Assembly (NCBI GenBank): GCA_003132585.1
Contig: PKYG01000131.1
Span: 3,405 to 49,865, forward strand
Source of the DNA: Actinomycetota bacterium
GTDB taxonomy: Bacteria; Actinomycetota; Thermoleophilia; UBA2241
DNA: 46,461 nt
Direction of reading: 5' to 3'
The notes under the pieces are model-generated. The model was not told where the DNA came from, made no database searches, and was given only the letters and a program-made list of their open reading frames with translations. Positions 5,565 to 22,050 of this stretch are shown piece by piece; position 1 is the stretch's first letter; the number at the start of each line of letters is the position of its first letter. The position numbers and the translations under genes are program-made.

Positions 5565-5691
5565 GCGCCACGAAGTCGGCGTGCTCGAGCGCCTCGTTAG
5601 CCATGAACGTGACGTGTGACCCGCCGATCACGGTGGGGATGCGGCGGGCGCGCAACTCGTCGGCGATCTCGTAGGCGGCCGGATTCACCGT
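5548..5691 (-). pseudogene. B12-binding domain fragment of a radical SAM protein
   Basis: The minus strand reads VNPAAYEIADELRARRIPTV, IGGSHVTFMANEALEHADFV and ARGEGG. This is the conserved core of the N-terminal B12-binding domain of radical SAM enzymes (AA..IAD.LRA...VIGG.HVT...EAL.HADFV..GEG). No radical SAM CxxxCxxC part remains: similarity ends where the recombinase fragment begins and starts abruptly where the plus-strand terminase fragment begins. The fragment is in frame with the corrinoid protein gene by chance or by deletion. Confidence 0.65.
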
Positions 5692-6055
5692 GCACGCCGA
5701 CCGGGTCACCGGCAACAAGGTCGAGCGCGCCCGACCGTTGGCGGCGCAGTGTGAGGCGGGTAACGTCCGCCTCGTTCGCGACGCCTGGAACCACGACTAC
5801 TTGGAGGAGCTCTGCAGTTTTCCGCTGGGCAGCTTCTGCGATCGCGTCGATGCCTCGAGCGGTGCCTTTAACAAGCTCGCCGGCGGCGGCAACTGGAGCC
5901 TCGAGCAGATTGCGGCCTTCGGCCGGGGCGAGGTGCCGGGGCGGGAGGCGACCGCGCAGCCCGCGCAAACACGCGAGGAACGCGAACGTGCCTACAAGGA
6001 GGAGGTCGCCGAAGCTCAGCGGCTGGCGCTGTTGCGCGCCCGCGGCTTCAGATGA
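5690..6055 (+). pseudogene. Phage terminase large subunit, C-terminal fragment
   Basis: The plus frame from GTG 5690 reads RVTGNKVERARPLAAQCEAG, NVRLVRDAWNHDYLEELCSF, then DRVDASSGAFNKL. This matches the end of the nuclease domain of large terminases (VTG.K..RA.PLAAQ.EAGNVRL......DEL..FP....DD.VDA.SGA). The ATPase half is absent. The Arg/Glu-rich tail to TGA 6055 may be the native C-terminus. The fragment begins exactly where the minus-strand radical SAM piece ends, which marks a recombination junction near 5690. Confidence 0.7.
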
Positions 6056-6150
6056 AGACGAAGCTCTGCGACCACCGTAGTGTCAGCGGCGCCGCCGCAA
6101 GCCGGCGACGCCGCCGACGGACTCAGATCTCGCTTCGGCGATTGGGGCAT

Positions 6151-6220
6151 GATCTGCTTCCTGCTTTTCGGTCCGAGAACCCTAACCTCAGGGTGGACCG
6201 ATTTCAGGGGTGCCGGTCAC
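6151..6220 (+). repeat. Degenerate 70-bp repeat, copy 1 (IS-end-like)
   Basis: The block starts GATCTGCTTC, contains CGGTCCGA..ACC.TAACCT and GGTGGACCGA.TTCAGGGGTG, and ends GGTCAC. A second copy in the same orientation lies at 17804-17874, with one small indel and roughly 85 percent identity by eye. The GGTCC...GGACC arms could pair. It resembles the outer end of an insertion sequence, but no transposase is attached. The rest of 6056-6355 holds no recognisable gene. Confidence 0.5.
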
Positions 6221-6355
6221 GTGGACACTGCGCTACGCGTCGATGCTTTGTGAGTCAGCTGATGTGCCACAAGTTCGACCGACATTGCCGTCGTCCGCCG
6301 CAGGATGCTACGTTACACTTGCCACAGAAGTTCAAATCCGACTGTGGGAGGTACT

Positions 6356-6844
6356 GTGGACGAAGTCGATCAACTCATCTTGGTAGCATTGCAGAAAGAC
6401 GGTCGCCAGACCATCGTCAACTTGGCCAAGTCCCTTGGGCTCTCGCCTTCGGCAATGCTGCAACGCGTCAGGCGACTAGAGACCACGGGCTGTATTCGTG
6501 GCTATCAGGCCGTCGTCGACCCGGCCTGTCTCGGGCTTGGTCAGCAGGCCCTGATCGCCATCCAGGTACGACATTCTAGTAACGCCCTTGAACGCTTTGA
6601 GCGCGGCATCATGAAGGTGGATGGCGTCAAGTCCTGCTATCGCGTGAGCGGACGCTACGATTACATATTGCGCGCCGCGCTTAAGGACGTGGCGCATGTT
6701 GGGTTGATGACCAAGAATGAGATCGCGGCGATCGATGGCTCCAGCAGAATCGAGACCATGTTGGTGTTCGCCACAGTGAAGTCAGACAATGGTTGGCTCA
6801 ATGAGGGGTCGTTTGCAGCAGTCGAAAACGATCCCTTGTCGTGA
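6356..6844 (+). CDS. Lrp/AsnC-family transcriptional regulator
   Basis: This 162-aa protein starts at GTG 6356 (frame open 17 codons further upstream), chosen because GGGAGG lies just before it and because the family starts right at the (D)xxDxxIL helix. Residues about 3-50 form the AsnC-type HTH (VDQLILVALQKDGRQTIVNL, LGLSPSAMLQRVRRLE). The rest is a clear RAM/AsnC ligand-binding domain (GQQALIAIQV, VKSCYRVSGRYDYILRAALK). It lies upstream of, and in line with, the cyclase-PLP enzyme-APC permease genes and probably senses the amino acid they handle. Confidence 0.92.
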   Translation: MDEVDQLILVALQKDGRQTIVNLAKSLGLSPSAMLQRVRRLETTGCIRGYQAVVDPACLGLGQQALIAIQVRHSSNALERFERGIMKVDGVKSCYRVSGRYDYILRAALKDVAHVGLMTKNEIAAIDGSSRIETMLVFATVKSDNGWLNEGSFAAVENDPLS

Positions 6845-8486: not shown

Positions 8487-9740
8487 ATGTCAGAGACGGA
8501 GCTTCAGCCGCCGGTAGCGACCTTCCCTATCAAAGCGGTGCGGGAGCAGTTCCCAGCCCTAGGCCGGGCCTATAGGGACAAGCCTGTCGCCTACCTGGAT
8601 GGCCCCGGCGGCTCGCAAGTCTGCAAGGGCGCCATCGATGCTGTCCGCGCGTACATGGAGCGCGGGGGCGCCAACCTACATGGCCAATTCCCGACGAGTC
8701 ACGAGACCGAGGCGCTCTTCGATGAAGCGCGGGCAGCAGTCGCCGATCTCCTCGGCGGCAAGGAGGAGGAGGTCGCATTCGGCCCTAACATGACCACCCT
8801 CACGTTCAGTATCTCGAGGGCCATGGCGAGGGAGTGGAAACCCGGCGATGAGATCGTCGTGACCGAGATGGACCACAACGCCAACGTCGACACGTGGTTG
8901 GCCGTGGCTAAGGACAAGGGCCTCACCGTGCGCTGGATCCCCGTCGACACCGAGACGCTCACGCTCGACCTCTCCGACCTGGACTCGATCATCACTGACC
9001 GCACAAAACTGGTCGCCGTGGGCGCAGCTTCAAACGCGATCGGAGTCGTCAACGACGTGGCCGCCGTCTCCGCTGTGGCCAAATCCAAGGGCGCGTTGGT
9101 GTTCGTCGACGCCGTGCACGCGGTGCCCCATTTCTTCGTCGATCGCGAAGCCTTGGGCATCGACATCGTCACCTGCTCCGCCTACAAGTTCTTCGGGCCT
9201 CACGTGGGCATGGCGTGCATCCGCGAGGACGTATTCGAGCGACTAGGGCCCTACAAGGTTGCACCTGCCCCTGACCAAATCCCCGACTGTCTGGAGACCG
9301 GGACGCAAAACCACGAAGGTTTGGGGGGAGTCATCGCGGCTGTCGAGTTCATCGCGAGCCTCGGCAGTGGTGAGACGCGCAGAGAGCGGATCGAGTCCGG
9401 GTACCGGGGCATCGAGGCTTGGGAGAGCAGCCTCGCCGAATCCATGCGCAGCCGCGTGCGCGACTTGCCGAAGGTCACCCTGTTCGACCCCGACACGGCA
9501 CACAAGACGCCGACTCTCGGACTCGATGTCGAGGGCGCATCGCCGACAGAGGTGTGCAAGTGGATGGCCGAAGAACACTCGATCTTCGTCGCCGACGGCC
9601 ATTTCTATGCCGTCAGACTGGGCGACCTGACGGGGGTCAACAAGAAGGGCGGCTGGGTGCGCGCAGGGCTTGCGCCCTACACCTCGGAGGAGGAGGCCGC
9701 ACGCTTCGTTGAGGCTCTCGAGGAGTACGTGACCAAGTAA
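8487..9740 (+). CDS. Class V PLP-dependent enzyme, cysteine desulfurase-like
   Basis: This 417-aa protein starts at ATG 8487 after GGAGGGAG. It has the fold-type I signature: YLDGPGGSQV near the start, His130 (TEMDHNAN) to stack on PLP, Asp208 with His211 (FVDAVHAVPH), and the Schiff-base lysine Lys234 in SAYKFFGPHVG. The general look is that of the cysteine-desulfurase-like subfamily with VREQFPAL and LETGTQNHEGL. Class V also includes kynureninase and isopenicillin-N epimerase, so the name should not be read as proof of sulfur chemistry: there is no IscU, SufE or other Fe-S gene beside it. The tight spacing to the cyclase and permease points to amino acid catabolism. Confidence 0.88.
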   Translation: MSETELQPPVATFPIKAVREQFPALGRAYRDKPVAYLDGPGGSQVCKGAIDAVRAYMERGGANLHGQFPTSHETEALFDEARAAVADLLGGKEEEVAFGPNMTTLTFSISRAMAREWKPGDEIVVTEMDHNANVDTWLAVAKDKGLTVRWIPVDTETLTLDLSDLDSIITDRTKLVAVGAASNAIGVVNDVAAVSAVAKSKGALVFVDAVHAVPHFFVDREALGIDIVTCSAYKFFGPHVGMACIREDVFERLGPYKVAPAPDQIPDCLETGTQNHEGLGGVIAAVEFIASLGSGETRRERIESGYRGIEAWESSLAESMRSRVRDLPKVTLFDPDTAHKTPTLGLDVEGASPTEVCKWMAEEHSIFVADGHFYAVRLGDLTGVNKKGGWVRAGLAPYTSEEEAARFVEALEEYVTK

Positions 9741-9789
9741 GTGCCAGGGGGCTTGTTTCAGCAAAGACTCAATAGGGGGTTGAGCTCAC

Positions 9790-11178
9790 ATGACTGAACT
9801 GAAATTGCAGCGATCACTCAGCACGGCGGACTTGGTCGTCTACGGAATCATGTTCATGATTCCCGTAGCACCCTTCGCCTGGTACGGCACCTTCATCGGA
9901 ACCGCAAACGGCATGGTCGCGCTGGCTTACCTCGTCGGCCTCGTTGCCATGCTATTCACGGGGTTTAGCTACGCGCAGATGTCAAGCCGTTACCCAATCG
10001 CCGGCTCCGTGTACTCATACGTTCAGCGCGGCACACGCCAAGAGTTGGGCTGGATGGCGGGCTGGGCCATCATGCTCGACTATATCTTTCTTCCCGCGGT
10101 GGCATACTTGATCGGCGCCCTGTTCTTCAGCGAGCTCGTGCCTGGCGTGCCGCAGTGGGGCTGGGTTGTCATCTTCGCGCTCGTCACCACTATCGTCAAC
10201 GTTCGTGGCATTCGGCTGATGGCCTGGACCAGCTGGGCGCTCTTCGCCTTCCAGGTCGTGGTCATGCTCTACTTCCTCATTGAGGTCTTCGCGAAGCTGG
10301 CCGCTGGGTCGCTGCACTTCAACGCAGTCGGCTTCTACAACCCCCACGGCTTCCACCTCCACGGTGTCCTCGCCGCCACTGTCATCGTCGTGTTGAGCTA
10401 TCTCGGCTTCGACGCCGTGAGCACTCTCTCCGAGGAAGCCAAGAACCCGCGCAAATCTGTCCCGCGGGCTACTGTCTACTCCATCCTCGGCGGTGGCGCC
10501 ATCTTCGTCATCCTGACTTACTTCGCTGGCGTCGCCTATCCGAACTATCAGCAGCTCAACTCGGACACGGCGTTCCTTGACATCCTCAAGGGCCTCGGCG
10601 GCAGACCACTGAACGACCTTGCCATCCTCGCCATCACAATCTCGTTCGGGCTCGCCTGTGCTCTTGAGGGGCAGTCTGCCATCGCCCGCATCCTTTACAG
10701 CATGGGACGCGACGGCATTCTTCCGAAACCGCTCGCCTCGGTGCACCCGAAGTGGCAGACACCGTGGGTCGCCACGATTCTCATCGGTGTCGTCTCGGTG
10801 GCCGTCGCTATCGCAATCGACCTTGCGACTCTCGCCACCTGGCTGAGTTTCGGCGCCCTGGTTGGCTTCATGGCTCTGAACGCGACCGTGATCTGGCACC
10901 TCTTTATTAGAAGCGAGAAGACAGCGGCCAGCTTCGCGAAATACGTGGTCTCGCCGCTGATCGGGCTCGTTGTCTGTGCCTACATTTTCGCCAACATGGG
11001 CACGGCTGCCTATAAGGTCGGATTCTCCTGGCTCGCCGTCGGCTTTGTCTACCTGCTCTACAAGACGAAGGTATTCACCAAGCCTGCACCGGTGCTGCAA
11101 CTGGACGAGGTGCTTGAACCGGAAGCGACTGAAGGTGGAGCAGTCGCTGCCGGGACAGAGGCTGCGCCCCTCGTCTAA
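9790..11178 (+). CDS. APC superfamily amino acid permease
   Basis: This 462-aa integral membrane protein has about 12 hydrophobic segments. Family marks include the TM1 break near GIMFMIPVAPFAWYG, RYPIAGSVYSYVQRG after TM2, and FDAVSTLSEEAKNPRKSVPRA between later helices, the classic APC loop. It should import an amino acid or amine by proton or sodium coupling, or exchange one. It ends the operon with the cyclase and the class V PLP enzyme and presumably imports their substrate; a strong inverted repeat follows the stop. Confidence 0.92.
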   Translation: MTELKLQRSLSTADLVVYGIMFMIPVAPFAWYGTFIGTANGMVALAYLVGLVAMLFTGFSYAQMSSRYPIAGSVYSYVQRGTRQELGWMAGWAIMLDYIFLPAVAYLIGALFFSELVPGVPQWGWVVIFALVTTIVNVRGIRLMAWTSWALFAFQVVVMLYFLIEVFAKLAAGSLHFNAVGFYNPHGFHLHGVLAATVIVVLSYLGFDAVSTLSEEAKNPRKSVPRATVYSILGGGAIFVILTYFAGVAYPNYQQLNSDTAFLDILKGLGGRPLNDLAILAITISFGLACALEGQSAIARILYSMGRDGILPKPLASVHPKWQTPWVATILIGVVSVAVAIAIDLATLATWLSFGALVGFMALNATVIWHLFIRSEKTAASFAKYVVSPLIGLVVCAYIFANMGTAAYKVGFSWLAVGFVYLLYKTKVFTKPAPVLQLDEVLEPEATEGGAVAAGTEAAPLV

Positions 11179-11248: not shown

Positions 11249-11467
11249 CACCTCCGCACCGAGGCGGTCCATCTGGCACGCACCAGCGGGCGACCGCCCT
11301 CGGAGATCGCCCGTGACTTGGGCTGCTGCACCGAGACGCTCAATAGCTGGATGCGCCAGGCGGCGATCGATGAGGACAAGGCCGAGGGCCTAACAAGCGA
11401 CGAGCGTGAGGAGCTGTGCCGCCTGCGGCGTGAGAACCGCATCCTGCGCGAGCCGAGCAGCTTCTGC
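11249..11467 (+). pseudogene. IS3-family OrfA transposase remnant
   Basis: The plus frame reads EAVHLARTSGRPPSEIARDL, then TLNSWMRQAAIDEDKAEGLT, then REELCRLRRENRILRE. This is the HTH plus leucine-zipper region of IS3 OrfA proteins. The N-terminal start is missing and, after ILRE, the usual tail is replaced by unrelated codons; no OrfB integrase core follows. I see nothing recognisable in 11468-11765. Confidence 0.7.
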
Positions 11468-11765
11468 GCACATCACACCCGATTGTGTCTGGTCGGAGGA
11501 AGTCCGCCGTGTGCTGGCGGTCTTCTCGGTGCGCCGACCCGATGCCGACGAGCCGCGCACCACAAAGGTGGCTCTCGTCGCCTGAACCGGTGCTTTGGGA
11601 GGCGAGCCGGCGTTGCTGGAGGTGTTCGCCACGCGGAACGCAAGCTGATGCGCCAGCGAAGGGCCCGGAAGCTAGACCGCTGAGTCCTCTCCGTCGACGC
11701 CTTGCCAGCCGCAAGAACCGGACGTGGCTGCCTGGCGACGAGCACCGTGATGGGGCCGTCGGCTC

Positions 11766-11927
11766 TCAGTACTTGCGCGGTGCCGCGCAGGTGAACGAGC
11801 TGATGACGAGCTCGACCTTCTTGCCGTGGCACTTCGGACAGACCGCGAGCTTGTCGCGCTCCGCGAGATGAGCGGTGACCTCGAAGCGCTCCCTGCACTC
11901 CCGGCAGCGATACTCATAGATCGGCAT
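11766..11927 (-). CDS. FmdB-family zinc-ribbon protein
   Basis: This 53-aa protein starts at ATG 11927, preceded by AAAGGAG. The sequence opens MPIYEYRCRECRERFEV and has Cys8, Cys11, Cys30 and Cys33 (CPKC), the FmdB/CxxC regulatory family layout. Family members are small zinc ribbons, often found near amidase or formamidase genes and stress genes, with a role in regulation assumed rather than proven. The C-terminal VELVISSFTCAAPRKY is short but typical. It stands alone among IS debris. Confidence 0.85.
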   Translation of the reverse strand: MPIYEYRCRECRERFEVTAHLAERDKLAVCPKCHGKKVELVISSFTCAAPRKY

Positions 11928-12280
11928 GACCGCTCCTTTCCCGTCCGGCGCCCGCGCGGTCCACGCGCGCAGGCCGGACGCTTCTCCCACTCCGGGTAGT
12001 CGCACCCACCCTGGACGTGCCTGTCCACGCCGACCTTGCCCTCGTCGCCCAGTGCGTTCCGGGCAAGGAGAAGCCCGCCGCTGCTTGAGAGATTGCAGAC
12101 AAGCCAGCCGTGCTAAGACGTGCCTACCTTGTCGCGCCTCGGCGTGTCACGCCACGCTTCACTGGCCTGCCGTGCCACGCCTCGCCATACCAAGCATCTG
12201 CGACGGCCACTTGCACTGTAGCACCGCAGCCACAGAGAGGCACCATTGGCCGTTGCGACGCCGAATGACCTCTCAAGTCG

Positions 12281-12358
12281 CGCCGATGTCGGCAGAAGTG
12301 GTGACTTTCGGTGTCGGGCAGGTGTCGTCGCGACGAGGGAGATGCCGACTTGCAGGAG
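12281..12358 (+). repeat. Degenerate direct repeat, copy A
   Basis: About 78 bp containing GGTGACTTTCGGTG and GTCGTCGCGACGAGGGAGAT recur in the same orientation at 12948-13024 with about 80 percent identity by eye. Copy B sits directly beside a tRNA-Cys 3' fragment, so the repeat looks like the downstream flank of that tRNA. Copy A has no tRNA part. The rest of 11928-12400 shows no gene. Confidence 0.5.
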
Positions 12359-12400
12359 GGAAGAACGAGGCGCGGGCGGGGCTATCCGTCCGGCGGACTC

Positions 12401-12757
12401 TCACTCCTCGGTGACAGCGGTCCCCGATGTCGCCAGCGCTCTGTCTGCACTCGCCGCCTGCGAGTAGATCGCCTCGTAGACATCAGGGAAACGCGCGCGG
12501 ATGAGCGCAGTGTTACAGTCGAAACGATGCCGGTAGCCGTCGTCTCCGTGCACCTGCTCCTTGACCACGTCGGCATGCGCCCAGCAGTACTCCAGCGTCT
12601 CAGCGAGCTGTGCAGGAAGAGCCTCCGACAGCACGCGCACGACCGTCCAGTAGCCAGTGATCCCTTCGTCCTCTGCCAGCCAACGTGCGCGGTCGGCAGC
12701 TTGGTAGAGTGCTGCGGTCTCCTCGGGTGTGAACTTCTCGTGGCGCTTTCGCCGCAC
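12401..12757 (-). CDS. Conserved-looking hypothetical protein
   Basis: This 118-aa protein starts at GTG 12757, preceded by an excellent AGGAGG site 6-8 nt upstream, which argues for a real gene. It is charged and soluble, with an N-terminal KRHEKFTPEETAALYQAADR helix, an acidic and aromatic middle (WLAEDEGITGYWTVVRVL), and HRFDCNTALIRARFPDVYEA near the C-terminus. There is no signal peptide, membrane segment or Cys motif. I do not recognise the family. Its place between two copies of the tRNA-flank repeat suggests accessory DNA. Confidence 0.65.
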   Translation of the reverse strand: MRRKRHEKFTPEETAALYQAADRARWLAEDEGITGYWTVVRVLSEALPAQLAETLEYCWAHADVVKEQVHGDDGYRHRFDCNTALIRARFPDVYEAIYSQAASADRALATSGTAVTEE

Positions 12758-12947
12758 GATGTGACCTCCTGAGAATACTCGAAGTTAGGTCGCAGGTATG
12801 GGTACCCAGTTGTAAGGGGGCTCAAGCGTTGTTTCGGCCAGCGAGCACGTCAAGGTTGAAGGCAGGCGTAGCCACAAAGAGAAGGAGCCGCGGCGGCGAG
12901 CAGCACAGACCTCGTCTGTGCAGCGCGATAGTCGGCACTTGCTGGCG

Positions 12948-13024
12948 CGAATGTCGGCGCACTTGGTGACTTTCGGTGACCGGCAGGGGTCGTCGCGACG
13001 AGGGAGATCCCGATTAGCAGGGGT
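12948..13024 (+). repeat. Degenerate direct repeat, copy B, next to tRNA fragment
   Basis: This is the partner of 12281-12358: GGTGACTTTCGGTGACCGGC and GTCGTCGCGACGAGGGAGAT. On the minus strand it lies directly downstream of the tRNA-Cys 3' fragment at 13031-13074, as expected for the flank of an integration target. Confidence 0.5.
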
Positions 13025-13030
13025 TTTTGC

Positions 13031-13074
13031 TGGAGGCGGCGACCGGAGTCGAACCGGTGATGGAGGTTTTGCAG
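13031..13074 (-). tRNA. tRNA-Cys 3' fragment, copy 1 (not a complete tRNA)
   Basis: Read on the minus strand, this has CTGCAAA (anticodon loop with GCA), ACCTC, a 4-nt variable loop, the T-arm ACCGG-TTCGACT-CCGGT, the acceptor strand CGCCGCC, then T and CCA. The 5' half is absent: the sequence before the anticodon cannot pair with ACCTC, and no GGCGGCG acceptor strand occurs upstream. Such half-tRNAs are typical of attachment-site duplications left by integrative elements. The remainder of 13075-13397 shows no gene. Confidence 0.7.
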
Positions 13075-13397
13075 TTGTGACTGGCCGAAGCCCCCGAATA
13101 TAGTGCGGTATGGTGCGGTAATCACGATTAGCGGCGGCCACGAAAACTGCCTCTTTGCAGGTCTTTCATCCGCTTCCGCAGGACCAAGGTGAGGCCCTAC
13201 CGCACAATCGCTTCCGTTCGCACGCCCAAGGGGCTCAGGACCGGCTTCCCTGCCGGCCCGATGTCGGCAATACGGCGGCGCCCCCGCTTCGCTCAGTCGC
13301 GCTACAGGTTGATTGCCGCGGTTCTGCTACTATGGGCTCGCTACGACTCTGACGTGATGAGTGCGTGGAGTCCTCGCCAGACTAAGGAGGACCAACG

Positions 13398-13886
13398 GTG
13401 AAACGTCTGCTGGTGTGTGTTCTTGCTGTCCTTGTGAACGGTCTGCTGCTTCCTTCTCTGGCGCAGGCCGCGACGCCGATTCCTGGCGGCGTGCTCACTT
13501 TCGCGCTGCAGTCAGATCCGGTCTGCATCGAACCACTCAACCCTGACTATTTCTCAGAAGGCGCGCAGGTCTGCCAGGCGCTCTTCGGCACCGGCGGTTT
13601 CCCGAGCTTCCCGGCCGCGAACGCCGGCCTCAAGCTCGCGCTGCCCGCCGGGTTCGGCATCGTCGGCGGCTCGAGCAGCGTATCACTGGGGACCATGGTC
13701 GCCGGCCAGATGAAGACCGTCACCGTCACGCTCAAGGCCGGCGCACACTCCGGCGACGCGGTGCCGGGAGCAACGGTCAGCGGGCTCGTCTGCGGATCGC
13801 TCGACGCTTGGCGCGATTACCCCGCCTACGCCTATCAGGACCAGCTCGGCGGCACTGGTTCGGCGCCGATCAGCGTAACTCGGTAA
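13398..13886 (+). CDS. Chimeric secreted protein: binding-protein N-terminus joined to a beta-rich tail
   Basis: This 162-aa protein starts at GTG 13398 with AAGGAGG 7 nt upstream. Residues 1-24 are a signal peptide ending AQA. Residues about 28-60 (TPIPGGVLTFALQSDPVCIE, then PLNPDYFSEGAQVCQALF) match the mature N-terminus of family 5 solute-binding proteins. After about residue 63 the sequence changes to a Gly/Ser/Thr/Val-rich stretch (LPAGFGIVGGSSSVSLGTMV, KTVTVTLKAGAHSGDAVPGA) like bacterial Ig-like or NEW3-type surface domains. I infer an in-frame fusion of two gene fragments. The good ribosome binding site suggests it is still translated. Confidence 0.65.
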   Translation: MKRLLVCVLAVLVNGLLLPSLAQAATPIPGGVLTFALQSDPVCIEPLNPDYFSEGAQVCQALFGTGGFPSFPAANAGLKLALPAGFGIVGGSSSVSLGTMVAGQMKTVTVTLKAGAHSGDAVPGATVSGLVCGSLDAWRDYPAYAYQDQLGGTGSAPISVTR

Positions 13887-13904
13887 AGATTCGAGGGCTC
13901 GCTC

Positions 13905-14801
13905 GTGTCACGCAAGGGCTGGCTGCTGTTCTGTGCCCTCTGCGTCATCTGGGGGATCCCCTACCTGCTCATCCGCGTGGCGGTGCGCGAGCTCTCACCG
14001 CCGGCGCTCGTCTTCTTTCGCACGGCGCCGGCGGCGCTCCTGCTGATCCCGTTCGCGGTGCGCCGTCGGCAGCTCACCTCGCTGTTGAGGCACTGGCCCT
14101 GGATCCTTGCGTTCGCACTCGCTGAGCTGGCCGTGCCATGGCTGCTGCTGGCCCACGCCGAGCAGCACGTGACGAGCTCGGTGGCGGGACTGCTGATTGC
14201 CGCAGTGCCGCTGATCGGCGCGGTGCTCTATCGTCTCGCCAGCACCGCCGACCACGTCGATGCACGCCGCTTGACCGGGCTCGTCGTCGGCTTCGCCGGT
14301 GTAGCCGTACTCGCCGGCGTCGACGTTCGCGGCGGCCACCCGCGCGCGGTGGTCGAGCTCGTCGTCGTGGCCATCTGCTATGCCATCGGCCCGCTCGTTA
14401 TCAGTCGGCGACTCGCCGACCTGCCCGGCTTGGACGTGGTGGCGGCGTCACTCGCCGTCACGGCCGTCGCCTACGCGGCGCCCGCCCTCACCCACCTGCC
14501 CCACTCCGTCTCGACCGAGACTGTCGGCGCCGTGGCGACGCTGGCTGTGATCTGCACGGCGCTCGCCTTCCTGCTGTTCTTCGCCCTCATCGTCGAGGTC
14601 GGTCCGGCGCGCTCCACCGTCATCACCTACATCAACCCCCTGATCGCCGTGCTGCTCGGCGTCGTGCTGCTCGGCGAACCCTTCACCGTGGGCATGGCGG
14701 CGGCGCTGCCCCTCATTGTCGGCGGGTCGGTCCTGGCGACGGCGCCCTCGCTCCACCGACCGGCACTCGAACCGGCCGAGTCGACACAGGAGCAAACCTG
14801 A
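13905..14801 (+). CDS. EamA/DMT-family transporter
   Basis: This 298-aa protein has ten predicted membrane helices in two EamA repeats. Marks include FCALCVIWGIPYLLIRVAV in helix 1 and STVITYINPLIAVLLGVVLLGE in the second repeat, the classical DMT signature. Members export amino acids, metabolites or drugs. The start is GTG 13905, 18 bp after the previous stop. Its stop overlaps the probable start of the next transporter. No regulator is adjacent and the substrate is unknown. Confidence 0.9.
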   Translation: MSRKGWLLFCALCVIWGIPYLLIRVAVRELSPPALVFFRTAPAALLLIPFAVRRRQLTSLLRHWPWILAFALAELAVPWLLLAHAEQHVTSSVAGLLIAAVPLIGAVLYRLASTADHVDARRLTGLVVGFAGVAVLAGVDVRGGHPRAVVELVVVAICYAIGPLVISRRLADLPGLDVVAASLAVTAVAYAAPALTHLPHSVSTETVGAVATLAVICTALAFLLFFALIVEVGPARSTVITYINPLIAVLLGVVLLGEPFTVGMAAALPLIVGGSVLATAPSLHRPALEPAESTQEQT

Positions 14802-16051
14802 AGCTCCCGGCCCGAATCGACGTACTGCGCCTGCGCAACTTCCGTAACCTTTTCATCGGGCAAACGGTGTCGCTGATCGGCGACGGCCTCTTTCCGGTTG
14901 CCCTTACCTTCGGGGTGCTCGACCTCACGCACTCGGGAACCGACGTTGGGCTGGTGCTCGCCGCCTTCGCCGTGCCGATGGTCCTGTTCACCCTGGTCGG
15001 CGGCGTCTGGGCTGACCGCCTGCGCCGCGAGTGGGTGATGATCGCTTCGGACCTATTCCGCTTTCTCACGCTGGCCGTGATCGCGGGCCTGCTCTTCACC
15101 CATCACGCACGGGTCTGGAACCTGGCCCTTCTCGGCTTTGCCTATGGCTGCGGCGACGCCTTCTTCTATCCGGCGTACACGGCACTCATCCAACAGATCG
15201 TGCCCCGTGACCGGCTCCAGGAAGCGAATGCCCTGCGGGGCGTCAGCGAAGGGTTCGGCTGGTTCGTGGGTCCGTCGATCTCGGGCATCCTGATCGCGTT
15301 CATCGGTACGAGCGGCACGTTGGCCGTCGACGCCGCCACATTCCTCGTTAGCGCCGCCTTCCTGCTGGCCCTGCGTGTCCCCGCCCTCGTGCGCTCGCAA
15401 GGGCGGACGACCACCTTCCTCACCGAGCTGCGCGACGGCTGGCGTGAGGTCTGCTCGCGGACCTGGCTGTGGGTGATGATGTTGCACGCCATGCTAGTGT
15501 TGTTCGTGACGATCGCGCCGCTGCAGGTGCTCGGCCCCCTGGCGATCACCACGCGCCACCAGAGTCCCGCGCTGTGGGGGTTCATGGTCGGGCTCTTTAG
15601 CCTGGGCATGCTGGTCGGCGGCCTCGTCGCCCTGTACTACCGGCCGCTGCGGCCCATGGTGACGGTCACTCTCTGCAGCACGACCGCCGCCATGGCCATG
15701 CTCGCGCTCGCCCTTCGGCTCTCGCCCGGAGCCCTGGTGACCGTCTGGTTCCTGCGCGGCATCGCCATCGGCGTGCTCACGGCGATCTGGGAGGCCAGCC
15801 TGCAGCACCACATCCCCCACGAGTCGATGGCGCGGGTGAGCAGCTGGGACTGGATGACCGGCGGCGGCTTGTGGCCGGTCGGGCTGGTGATCGCCGGGCC
15901 GATCGCCCAGACGATCGGTCTGACCAACGCGCTATGGCTTTCGGGGGGCTGCGGCGTCGCCTGTTCTCTGTGGGTCCTGTTCGTGAAGGACGTGTGGCGG
16001 TTGCGGGGGCCTGCGGCCCCCGCAACCGCCACCGACTCGTCGCCCACATGA
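14798..16051 (+). CDS. MFS transporter (MFS_3/enterobactin-exporter-like)
   Basis: This protein of about 417 aa has 12 probable membrane helices. It opens KLPARIDVLRLRNFRNLFIG, then SLIGDGLFPVALTFGVL and the loop GGVWADRLRREWVMI, the MFS signature after helix 2; DRLQEANALRGVSEGFGWFV is typical of this exporter group. The start is uncertain: no ATG or GTG lies close, and CTG 14798, 5 nt after AGGAG and overlapping the EamA stop, is my best choice. The upstream open frame belongs to the EamA gene on another phase. It is probably cotranscribed with EamA as an efflux pair. The tail is encoded by a perfect 18-bp inverted repeat. Confidence 0.87.
   Translation: MKLPARIDVLRLRNFRNLFIGQTVSLIGDGLFPVALTFGVLDLTHSGTDVGLVLAAFAVPMVLFTLVGGVWADRLRREWVMIASDLFRFLTLAVIAGLLFTHHARVWNLALLGFAYGCGDAFFYPAYTALIQQIVPRDRLQEANALRGVSEGFGWFVGPSISGILIAFIGTSGTLAVDAATFLVSAAFLLALRVPALVRSQGRTTTFLTELRDGWREVCSRTWLWVMMLHAMLVLFVTIAPLQVLGPLAITTRHQSPALWGFMVGLFSLGMLVGGLVALYYRPLRPMVTVTLCSTTAAMAMLALALRLSPGALVTVWFLRGIAIGVLTAIWEASLQHHIPHESMARVSSWDWMTGGGLWPVGLVIAGPIAQTIGLTNALWLSGGCGVACSLWVLFVKDVWRLRGPAAPATATDSSPT
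15994..16032. terminator. Perfect 18-bp hairpin inside the MFS 3' end
   Basis: GTGGCGGTTGCGGGGGCC (15994-16011), loop TGC, then GGCCCCCGCAACCGCCAC (16015-16032) pair without a mismatch. It ends 19 bp before the stop codon at 16051 and encodes part of the MFS tail. No T-tract follows, so it is either an unusual terminator/mRNA-end structure or a palindromic repeat unit. Confidence 0.55.
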
Positions 16052-16069
16052 CGCGGGGCACTTGAGCGC

Positions 16070-16207
16070 ATGAGGATCGGGTTCCTCGGCGACAGCCTGA
16101 CCGAAGGATGGCCCGGTGAGTCGTTTCTTGCCCGGCTGGGACCGCTGCTGCCTCAGCTCGAGCTCTTCAACCTCGGCAGCGCTGGCGAACAGCGATGGTG
16201 CCGATGA
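16070..16207 (+). pseudogene. SGNH/GDSL hydrolase, N-terminal fragment
   Basis: ATG 16070 to TGA 16207 encodes 45 aa: MRIGFLGDSLTEGWPGESFL, then ARLGPLLPQLELFNLGSAGE. GDSLTEG with the catalytic Ser is block I of SGNH hydrolases, and LFNLGxxG is the start of block II. The gene is cut at about residue 40, exactly where the second tRNA-fragment repeat begins, so an integration or recombination event truncated it. An intact enzyme would be about 180-220 aa. Confidence 0.72.
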
Positions 16208-16220
16208 ACAGGGGTTTTGC

Positions 16221-16257
16221 TAGAGACGGCGACCGGAGTCGAACCGGTGATGGAGGT
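16221..16257 (-). repeat. tRNA-Cys 3' fragment, copy 2, with flank
   Basis: Minus-strand ACCTCCATCACCGGTTCGAC then TCCGGTCGCCG repeats copy 1 at 13031-13074; the next bases, TCTCTAGC, differ from CCTCCAGC, so the CCA is lost. The shared block continues beyond the tRNA into AGCAAAACCCCTG (16208-16220), and both copies point the same way. It is shorter than copy 1: the anticodon loop is not conserved. Confidence 0.7.
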
Positions 16258-16356
16258 CTTGTTCTTGTGTCCAGGCAGGAGAAACGTGCTATTTGCAACG
16301 ACAGCGCCGCGGCGCCCGTCACCGGAGCCGCGGCACGGACACAGAAGGAGGCGATC

Positions 16357-17418
16357 ATGGGTGGTCCCGGTAGCGGCCGCTGGCCGACAACGTGGAGTGT
16401 CAAAGAGTGTCGCGTGCTCGAGATCGGCGGCCTCTGTGACGGCGAGCGCCTGCTCAGGCAGCCGCGCGGTGAGCTGCGCTGGGTCGAGCAGGGCTCGGGG
16501 GTCATGCGGGCGAGCCTCTCCTACGCGATCGCCGAGGAGGACTGGCCCTATGGACCGCAGCCCGTGCTCACGGTGCGCTACCGCAAGACGCCGTCGGCGC
16601 CCGAGTCGCGCGATCACATCGTGCTCGAAGGCGGCGATCATCGACGCGCTCTCGCTCTCTGTCCCGGATGCGGGTGCCCGGTGCGCAAGCTCTACGCCCC
16701 ACCGACTGCCGAGTACTTCTTCTGTCGGGACTGTCACGGGCTCATCTATCGGCGCCCGCCCCGGGCGAAGGAGCAGGCGCAGAGGCGCGCCGCCATGGAC
16801 TCGCTGGCAGCGGTGGCCGCTGATGTAGAGGCCTTGATCGACCCCCTGCGCGAGGCACCCGACGAGGTCGCAGCGGCTAGCGCTGCCAGCGGCACGCCGG
16901 CAGAGCAAGACGATGAGCTAAAGACGCTAATGTGGAGGCTTGAGAACGAGTCGCTCAAAGGGCCGCAGGAGGTGCGCATCTACTGCCTGCGCCTGGCCAA
17001 GGCCGGTTTCTCGCTGCAGCAAATCGCCGCCCTCGTGTACTACTCCAAGAGCAGCGTGCAGCGCTACCTTGCTGCTGGCCTTGAAGGGATCGACATGAGG
17101 CCGCTCGTGGGCAAGCGACTCGAGCGCTACTGGGCCCCTCCGCCGGCGCCCGAAGGCGATGACCCCAAGGCGCTGCGCGCGGATCTGGCGATGCTCGGCG
17201 GCGCTGCCGGGCGGCTGGGCCTCTACCGTATGGACACAAGCGAGCCGGAGGAACGGGTGCTGATCATCGCCGACGCCGAGGGAGCGGCCAGCGCCGATAT
17301 CGATCGCGCGACGCAGGGCACGCCTGACCGCGTCGAGGTGCCGGTCGGGGCGATCTCCGAGCCTGTGGTCAAGCACCCAGTGAGACGCGCAAAGAGCATC
17401 CGCCTGGGCCGGTGGTGA
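16357..17418 (+). CDS. Mobile-element-type protein with zinc ribbon and HTH
   Basis: This 353-aa protein starts at ATG 16357 after AGAAGGAGG; the frame is open further upstream through the tRNA fragment, but the ribosome binding site and the MGGPGSGRW start decide it. N-terminal GGxGSGR is common in hypothetical proteins of phages and integrative elements. A zinc ribbon follows with Cys102, Cys105, Cys123 and Cys126 (LCPGCG...FFCRDCHGL). A C-terminal HTH-like segment reads LAKAGFSLQQIAALVYYSKS then SVQRYL. The last 50 residues contain DIDRATQGTPDRVEV, closely like the terminase tail encoded at 21940, so the C-terminus may be a fusion with terminase debris. The function is unknown; a DNA-binding role is inferred. 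Confidence 0.75.
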   Translation: MGGPGSGRWPTTWSVKECRVLEIGGLCDGERLLRQPRGELRWVEQGSGVMRASLSYAIAEEDWPYGPQPVLTVRYRKTPSAPESRDHIVLEGGDHRRALALCPGCGCPVRKLYAPPTAEYFFCRDCHGLIYRRPPRAKEQAQRRAAMDSLAAVAADVEALIDPLREAPDEVAAASAASGTPAEQDDELKTLMWRLENESLKGPQEVRIYCLRLAKAGFSLQQIAALVYYSKSSVQRYLAAGLEGIDMRPLVGKRLERYWAPPPAPEGDDPKALRADLAMLGGAAGRLGLYRMDTSEPEERVLIIADAEGAASADIDRATQGTPDRVEVPVGAISEPVVKHPVRRAKSIRLGRW

Positions 17419-17803: not shown

Positions 17804-17874
17804 GATCTGCTTCATCCTTCTTCGGTCCGAAAACCATAACCTCAAGGTGGACCGACTTCAGGGGTGCAGATCAC
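17804..17874 (+). repeat. Degenerate 70-bp repeat, copy 2 (IS-end-like)
   Basis: This is the same block as 6151-6220: GATCTGCTTC, CTTCGGTCCGAAAACC, TAACCTCAAGGTGGACCGAC, TTCAGGGGTG, GATCAC. It ends 1 bp before the hydrolase stop at 17876. No transposase gene accompanies either copy. Confidence 0.5.
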
Positions 17875-20500: not shown

Positions 20501-21684
20501 TGAAGGGCACACAAACGCCCGCTTCGCTCACGCGACCAGGTCGTACTCGTGGATCAGCCCGCCGAGGACGTCTCGCCGTCGCAGTTGCGCGGTCGAGACA
20601 AACGCGACCGGCTGCGTGCCTTCGCCCTGCGGCACGCGCAGGCCGAGCCCGCGGTGGGGCCGCTTGGCATTGTAGTGGTCGACGTACTCAGCGAGCACCT
20701 TCTCCAGGTGTCTGCGACCAGCGATAATCATCCAGTCCAGGCATTCCCTACGCACGGTGCGCACCCAGCGTTCGGCAAAGGCGTTCACCTTGGGAGCCTG
20801 GATGGGCGTGCGAATCACTCTGATCCCCTCCGCGGTGAACACCGAATCGAAGCTGGAGGTGTACTTGCAGTCCCGGTCTCTGAGCAGGAATCGAAACGTT
20901 CGACTCTCATCGGCAAGGTCGCAGGAGAGGTTTCTCGCCTGCTGGGTGACCCAGGCCGCGTTGGGGTTGCGGGCCACACCGAGAATGTGGATCCGTCGGC
21001 TTCCGACCTCGATCGCAAACAGCACGTAGAAGGTGCGCAGAAAGAGGCTGTCTACGGTGAAGAAGTCAAAGGCGAGGATGCCGTGCGCCTGGGCTCTGAT
21101 GAACTCAGACCAGGTTGGCCCCTGGCGGCGCGGTGCGGGGCCCAGGCCGTGGCGGCGCAGCAGGGTGCGAATCGTGCTGGCCGAGGCCCTGAGGTTGAGC
21201 TTGGCGAGCTCGCCCTGGATGCGTCGGCAGCCCCATCGCGGGTTCTCCCTGGCCAGGCGCAGCACCAACGCGGCGACCTCTGCCTGGAGCCCCGGACGGC
21301 CGCCACGGGCGACCCGCCGGAAGGTCCATCGGCGGCGCACAAGCTCCCGGTGCCAGCGCAGGAGAGTCGAGGGGCTGACCAGAAACGTCTGCCAGGCGCC
21401 TCGGAGCAGGGCCCGGCTGGCCGCCGCCAGCAGGAGACGATCGCGACGCCTCAGTCTCGGGCGGGCGATCTGGCGAGAAAGGACCTTGAGCTGGTGGCGC
21501 AAGACGAGGATCTCGAGGTCCTTCGAGCGGTCGTTCTCTAACGGGCCGACCGCCCATTCCACCAGCCTGCGCAGGGCGAGGTAGAGCAAGGCGAATGCCA
21601 CCGGCGGATGCCTCCTTGGTCGGGACGAGAGATCTGCAAGGAAACACGGCTCAGCGCGGCTGTCCAGAGTTTCTGTGCCCTTCA
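20501..21684 (-). mobile_element. Complete insertion sequence, 1184 bp, IS3/IS481-like
   Basis: Imperfect terminal inverted repeats bound the single transposase gene: TGAAGGGCACACAAAC at 20501 and, at the other end, GTTTCTGTGCCCTTCA as its near-complement ending at 21684 (TG...CA ends). I see no target-site duplication: the flanks are CCACACCCCC and GGCAAGCTCG. The right end abuts a phage terminase fragment. A related but not identical element is cut by the right window edge at 46461. Confidence 0.75.
20528..21601 (-). CDS. DDE integrase-core transposase
   Basis: This 357-aa protein starts at GTG 21601. An N-terminal HTH region (LVLRHQLKVLSRQIARPRLR, ENPRWGCRRIQGELAKL) precedes the rve integrase core. 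Catalytic acidic residues are visible in ILAFDFFTVD, FLLRDRDCKYT and NAFAERWVRTVRRECLDW. The conserved C-terminus is HYNAKRPHRGLGL, then LGGLIHEYDLVA. The protein seems full length and intact, so the element may be active. Confidence 0.92.
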   Translation of the reverse strand: MAFALLYLALRRLVEWAVGPLENDRSKDLEILVLRHQLKVLSRQIARPRLRRRDRLLLAAASRALLRGAWQTFLVSPSTLLRWHRELVRRRWTFRRVARGGRPGLQAEVAALVLRLARENPRWGCRRIQGELAKLNLRASASTIRTLLRRHGLGPAPRRQGPTWSEFIRAQAHGILAFDFFTVDSLFLRTFYVLFAIEVGSRRIHILGVARNPNAAWVTQQARNLSCDLADESRTFRFLLRDRDCKYTSSFDSVFTAEGIRVIRTPIQAPKVNAFAERWVRTVRRECLDWMIIAGRRHLEKVLAEYVDHYNAKRPHRGLGLRVPQGEGTQPVAFVSTAQLRRRDVLGGLIHEYDLVA

Positions 21685-22050
21685 GGCAAGCTCGTAGTCG
21701 ACCTCTACCATGAGCACGAGGCCGACCGCGTGGTCGCCGAGGCCAACAACGGCGGCGATATCGTCCAGGCCCTACTGCGTACCATCGACCGTGACGTGCC
21801 GATCCGTATGGTGCACGCCTGCCGGGGCAAGTTCGTGCGCGCCGAACCGATCAGCTCCCTGTATGAGCAGGGGCGCGTACACCACGTCGGCAGCTTCCCC
21901 GCCCTCGAGGACCAGATGGCGAGCTTCACGCCCGATCTCGACCGCGCCACGCAAGGGTCGCCCGATCGCGTCGACGCCCTGGTGTGGGGACTGACCGAGG
22001 TGATGCTCAAGCAAGCGCCGCAACGTGTCGCCCGCAGCACCCAGATCTAG
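21685..22050 (+). pseudogene. Phage terminase large subunit, C-terminal fragment
   Basis: From the IS end the plus frame reads GKLVVDLYHEHEADRVVAEA, NNGGDIVQALLR, FVRAEPISSLYEQGRVHHVG, MASFTPDLDRATQGSPDRVD and ALVWGLTEVML to TAG 22050. This is the C-terminal nuclease domain of a large terminase (AE.N.GG, RAEP...LYEQGRV.HVG, SPDR.DALVW). It differs from the terminase type at 5690. The missing N-terminal part is not found on the other side of the IS. Confidence 0.8.

Follow-up and report, generated by a model that had tools for sequence, protein, structure and literature searches.

A tRNA-Cys-targeting prophage-like element family has scattered attachment sites over the genome of a soil actinobacterium

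Introduction

Integration of mobile elements into tRNA genes leaves a regenerated gene at one end of the insert and a displaced 3' fragment at the other, and anticodon-loop crossover forms a class of its own in the Islander collection (PMC4383910). Of arrays with at least two islands in tandem that collection counts 125, four of which hold three or more, and it requires each array member to have an integrase in place. According to the portion of a survey considered here, prokaryotic tRNA gene fragments that stem from mobile-element integration are widespread; the cases it describes there are likewise partial tRNAs, in single islands and not in arrays (PMC9897764). Recurring repeats of a tRNA end, in that case tRNA-Lys, with variable gene content in between, also mark the additive flexible island of Ca. 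Methylopumilus; unlike the repeats studied here they are 20 bp long, and the part of that account considered describes no arms or linked integrase (PMC10872708).

The closest precedent for our locus is provided by the ssrA islands of Dehalococcoides, which lie in tandem at one RNA gene and show many direct repeats of its 3' end, each with a short conserved motif beside it. Their integration module lies beside one end, and 15 islands have no such module (PMC3146451). In that system a serine recombinase acts at the tmRNA gene and all repeats lie within 100 kb, whereas the sites described below involve a tyrosine integrase, tRNA-Cys and terminase genes, with copies spread across contigs. Like the Islander islands, they combine an intact tRNA gene with 3' fragments, here starting in the anticodon loop. 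The structure is thus of a known kind, and what is new is the host lineage and the details.

Here, we analyse a 46,461-nt stretch of DNA (the window) from an uncultured Thermoleophilia bacterium. C labels denote the contigs of its own genome (G000, a MAG of 142 contigs; the window lies on C2) and other G labels denote related genomes; the named ones are MAGs of Thermoleophilia or Actinomycetota, and for several of them the record titles give permafrost or peat as the source. The core of a site (the tRNA-Cys 3' half plus flank) is called O, its flanking arms P and P', and the window copies O1, O2 and O3.

Results

The sequence-only reading of the window had reported two half-tRNA-Cys copies in the same orientation and had taken them as the footprint of integration at a tRNA-Cys gene. 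Both copies are present, and in each the tRNA reads on the minus strand. Within the window there are exactly two occurrences of the 30-mer GGCGACCGGAGTCGAACCGGTGATGGAGGT, whereas none of 100 shuffles contained it, even at 3 mismatches, and the repeat shared by the two main copies, O1 on the right and O2 on the left, is longer than first described, extending over 59-70 bp at 87-88% identity. A search for the intact tRNA-Cys gene (GCA anticodon) located the only one in the genome at positions 6769-6842 of C73. The core of O2 (13010-13074) is 98% identical over 65 bp to the 3' half of this gene together with ~21 nt of its 3' flank; the shared block runs from CTGCAAA in the anticodon loop through CCA and on into this flank. 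O1 is ~89-90% identical to the same block and its start is altered, reading GAACAAG instead of CTGCAAA. Neither copy is an intact tRNA, and no intact RNA gene was found in the window with ARAGORN or Rfam; a permissive Rfam scan of 11250-13450 gave chance-level matches only. The window stops short of the intact gene, which lies on a separate contig of the MAG.

A sequence-only model of the site (R1), built from 15 site copies that include O1 and O2 and not O3, recovered three sites from the window, at 12.3, 13.0 and 16.2 kb, each of them on the minus strand (Table 1). The third, decayed copy (O3) had not been noticed before. O2 is a complete P-O-P' module, 95% identical over 146 bp to a module on C95, 91% to one on C69 and 87% to one on C60. 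O1 retains its P side and merely ~20 bp of P' arm. The two copies had been proposed to bracket one inserted exporter segment, as attL and attR would; that proposal is not supported by a left copy with both element-type arms, i.e., an attP-like junction, a right copy with little of its P' arm, and a dispersed repeat family.

Table 1 Features of the tRNA-Cys site region in the window
Feature	Position	Strand	Evidence
5'-flank relic of a tRNA-Cys-family integrase gene	11476..11631	+	81-94% to C6, C73; 77% to C60
O3, third decayed copy (P' arm and half-tRNA remains)	12282..12377	-	R1 positions 49-146, 27.9 bits, E 7e-7; 84% to 12945-13021
118-aa ORF between O3 and O2, no known family	12404..12757	-	
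O2, complete attP-like P-O-P' module (half-tRNA 13031-13074)	12946..13090	-	R1 110.8 bits
Chimeric ORF of 162 aa whose N-terminus resembles a solute-binding protein	13398..13886	+	No Pfam match
EamA-family exporter	13905..14801	+	PF00892 8.7e-35
MFS exporter	14798..16048	+	PF07690 1.2e-35
SGNH/GDSL hydrolase N-terminal fragment, 45 codons + stop	16070..16207	+	Colinear with intact MFS-SGNH on G001:C181
O1: P side, half-tRNA 16221-16257, ~20 bp P' arm, then SGNH	16179..16278	-	R1 73.2 bits; arm start resembles C6
GGPGSGR zinc-ribbon/HTH-like protein beside O1 P side	16357..17415	+	Weak Zn_ribbon_6/HTH_23
Terminase large-subunit relic, P side of O1	21595..22047	+	phrog_979 3.5e-20; 85% to C95 over 323 bp

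By sequence search, the genome holds about seven half-tRNA-Cys copies, located on C2 (two), C60, C95, C6, C69 and, weakly, C35. Four relatives of the same family (G001, G005, G006 and G011) hold at least two half copies each. Genomes from outside the family give one or two matches each, and those checked turned out to be the tRNA gene with no more than one half. The P side of the copies ends in a GTCACAA- or GTGACGA-like sequence ahead of CTGCAAA, and most copies have TGCCGACATT-type motifs in common on the P' side. The block from CTGCAAA is also used in the class relatives G020 and G053. G020, whose genome is one contig, carries the tRNA-Cys gene, an integrase and, 17.5 kb away, a half copy with the same block, which makes it a control island; G053 holds a 1-kb remnant with an integrase fragment. 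The tRNA-Cys genes of G003 and G007, which have neither arm nor integrase, look like empty sites. Some copies lie alone among host-type genes, with no phage genes seen; examples are several in relatives and a complete P-O-P' module on C69 (12403-12545). The module on C69 has a BlaI-type repressor gene on one side and a secreted-protein-like gene on the other, and no integrase was found on that contig.

Related tyrosine-integrase genes adjoin half-tRNA copies on four other contigs (C73, C95, C60 and C6), which bears out the copies as a footprint of integration at tRNA-Cys. The integrases on C73, C95 and C60 are 92-93% identical to that on C6; the protein matches PF00589 and phrog_1 and has a SAM-like N-terminal domain, and its sites are tRNA halves with arms. 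All four loci share one fixed order, integrase-cargo-P'-half-tRNA, with the integrase pointing towards the tRNA. On the P side, C60 and C95 carry terminase genes together with ParB/methylase genes. Because integrases and P-side terminase genes flank the sites, we read the elements as prophage-like. Searches of the viral collection brought up neither a confirmed integrase relative nor anything matching the half-tRNA pattern. Among the cargo on C60, which separates the integrase from the half-tRNA, genes at L073 4943-7126 and 8375-9490 gave matches to the PADLOC candidate defence families PDC-M51A and PDC-S19.

Within the window itself, what is left of such elements is relics. As the sequence-only reading had stated, the interval from O2 to O1 contains no integrase. 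The 5'-flank relic of an integrase gene, likewise new to this analysis, adjoins the array on its left, at the P' side of O3; it corresponds to DNA 44-199 bp upstream of the integrase start, the coding part being gone, and in its orientation the gene would have read towards the half-tRNAs. On the other side, beyond O1, lies the terminase relic, and the protein encoded at 16357-17415 is 42% identical over 254 aa to a protein that adjoins the P side of the copy on G004:C40. The window so retains relics of both element sides, with extra DNA between three core copies. Since colinearity with several relatives begins at 22.15 kb and continues onward, the disturbed stretch ends at about that point. 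Two dispersed repeats also occur in the window. One, of 217 bp (12048-12264), is 93% and 91% identical to two places on C12 and 82-85% to copies in other family genomes; the other is a short palindromic repeat (TCGGTCC..GGACCGA) at 6151-6220 and 17804-17874, with copies on C69, C6, C73 and C60.

The truncation of the SGNH hydrolase gene at the right copy was borne out: the fragment encodes 45 aa, compared with 223 aa for the intact GDSL protein (PF13472) that directly follows the MFS gene on G001:C181. Similarity to this gene ends at 16188-16194 of the window, whereas similarity to the attachment-site arm of C6 begins at 16183, leaving an overlap zone of 12 bp (16183-16194). The cut thus falls at a junction inside the arm, ~70 bp from the presumed crossover, and integration itself was dropped as its cause for that reason. 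End-joining via a few shared bases within the arm is the best reading of this junction.

Discussion

Taken together, the half-tRNAs of the window are real remnants of a prophage-like element family that targets tRNA-Cys. How they came to lie around the exporter genes is less certain. On balance, we favour the view that 11.4-22.1 kb of the window represents decayed, tandemly inserted elements with one tyrosine-integrase family aimed at the tRNA-Cys 3' half, and that the 3.2-kb interval between O2 and O1 is the remnant of one of them whose integrase end was deleted. An attachment site comprises a P arm, core O (the 3' half of tRNA-Cys, beginning in the anticodon loop, plus ~20 nt of flank) and a P' arm bearing TGCCGAC-type motifs; the integrase lies on the P' side, reading towards the tRNA, and the phage packaging genes lie on the P side. 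Repeated integration of related elements at tRNA-Cys would yield direct O repeats in a single orientation, and later deletions could have removed integrases and fused arms to genes. In the interval, the P end would be intact at O2 (13074), and a deletion via short shared sequence would have taken the integrase end and joined codon ~40 of SGNH to the P' arm of O1. Little of that arm is left, which makes the assignment of the interval to one element tentative. The EamA, MFS and SGNH genes, ordinary ones for the family, would have been carried or captured.

Three same-orientation copies in one locus are what a tandem array should contain. An integrase in each member, as in the Islander arrays, is what the window lacks between O1 and O2. 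The linkage of integrase to site that characterises islands is found on C73, C95, C60 and C6, and the combination of terminase and integrase near an attachment site that characterises prophages at C60 and C95; the window offers a 5'-flank relic of an integrase gene and a terminase relic. Against a tandem order, the copies could lie far apart in a genome assembled into 142 contigs. Some of them also sit among host-type genes, and in the neighbourhoods fetched EamA and MFS relatives elsewhere are unlinked to attachment sites, which speaks against this reading.

A serious, though in our view rather unlikely, alternative is that the exporter genes are resident chromosome that was never part of an element, with copies left on either side by separate integrations and rearrangements. 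Within the family, close relatives of EamA, MFS and the SGNH start occur in 13, 12 and 10 of 15 genomes, respectively, the window's own genome included (it has a second MFS copy on C69). MFS-SGNH is a normal pair in G001, and the EamA relatives of G003 and G007 are found 12-14 kb downstream of tRNA-Cys, with the same relative orientation. Apart from the tRNA-Cys gene of G007 and one weak match in G004, the fetched neighbourhoods of EamA, MFS and SGNH relatives contained no attachment sites. In view of this survey we abandoned the notion of the exporter genes as conserved element cargo. Neither the survey nor the SGNH junction, which lies within the arm and not at the crossover, supports the earlier description of the exporter segment as an inserted unit. 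The genes between the copies are ordinary family genes and not a clean integrated element. Against this alternative, the EamA relatives of G005, G007, G008 and G006 share their contigs with S9 peptidase, ftsE/ftsX-like or S41 peptidase genes, none of which was seen around the EamA gene of the window. Moreover, the MFS gene is 84% identical to that of G006, versus ~74-75% for chromosomal DNA beside tRNA-Gly/Cys, and its C69 paralogue is 89% identical to G001 versus 69%. At 66% to more distant relatives, MFS is not slow-evolving, and such identity above the chromosomal level suggests that it was exchanged; EamA, at 76%, is unremarkable. In G006, an SBP_bac_5 gene lies upstream of the EamA relative.

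Less likely than the resident-chromosome explanation, and improbable given that one site is missing most of its arm and has an altered overlap, is a third possibility: the 3.19-kb O-to-O interval would have entered as an integrase-free circle with one O, moved by an integrase whose gene lies at another place in the genome. Other loci do carry integrases of the right family, copies without an integrase are common in relatives, and short O-to-O intervals exist (235 bp at tRNA-Arg, and ~0.7 kb for another). Against it stand the truncated P' arm and altered overlap (GAACAAG) of O1 and an SGNH junction away from the crossover, and the cassette was not found a second time. Extended to the family as a whole, this idea would make integrase-free, O-bounded segments with ordinary host genes, moved in trans by several related tRNA integrases, an integron-like cassette system on tRNA 3' halves in these Thermoleophilia, which we consider a long shot. 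Least credible of all is that the half-tRNAs are a dispersed repeat unrelated to integration. The objection is right insofar as several copies exist in the genome, some of them alone among host genes, but the copies begin at the anticodon loop and bear arms, several lie beside integrases in one fixed order, and the islands of G020 and of C9 (below) display the normal integration product.

The window cautions that half-tRNA repeats need not be the two ends of one island. The genomes of this uncultured Thermoleophilia family carry many attachment-site remnants from related integrases aimed at different tRNA genes. They document that phage-like elements integrated repeatedly, and such integration is a plausible way for metabolic and defence genes to move.

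Further systems in the same genome support the tandem-element reading. In one, a tRNA-Arg(CCT) series, copies that share a contig are spaced by 235 bp, 4 kb and 16 kb; another is a simple tRNA-Thr island. The tRNA-Arg(CCT) 3' halves, which have the same style of P' arm, lie on C5 (34130, 38155), C120 (2921, 3156, 18921; the first two are the pair separated by 235 bp), C86 (1481) and C88 (8937), and the intact gene on C34 (9891-9966). The tRNA-Thr island on C9 is a textbook single island of ~9.3 kb, with the tRNA-Thr gene at c10329-10404, the integrase at 9073-9642 and the half at c1030-1071. Integrase 3' tails occur on C5 (1603, 2040, 2666; full gene 5591-6823) and C120 (6427, 7587; full gene 8996-10228), where they are arranged in tandem, downstream of the full gene and in the same orientation.
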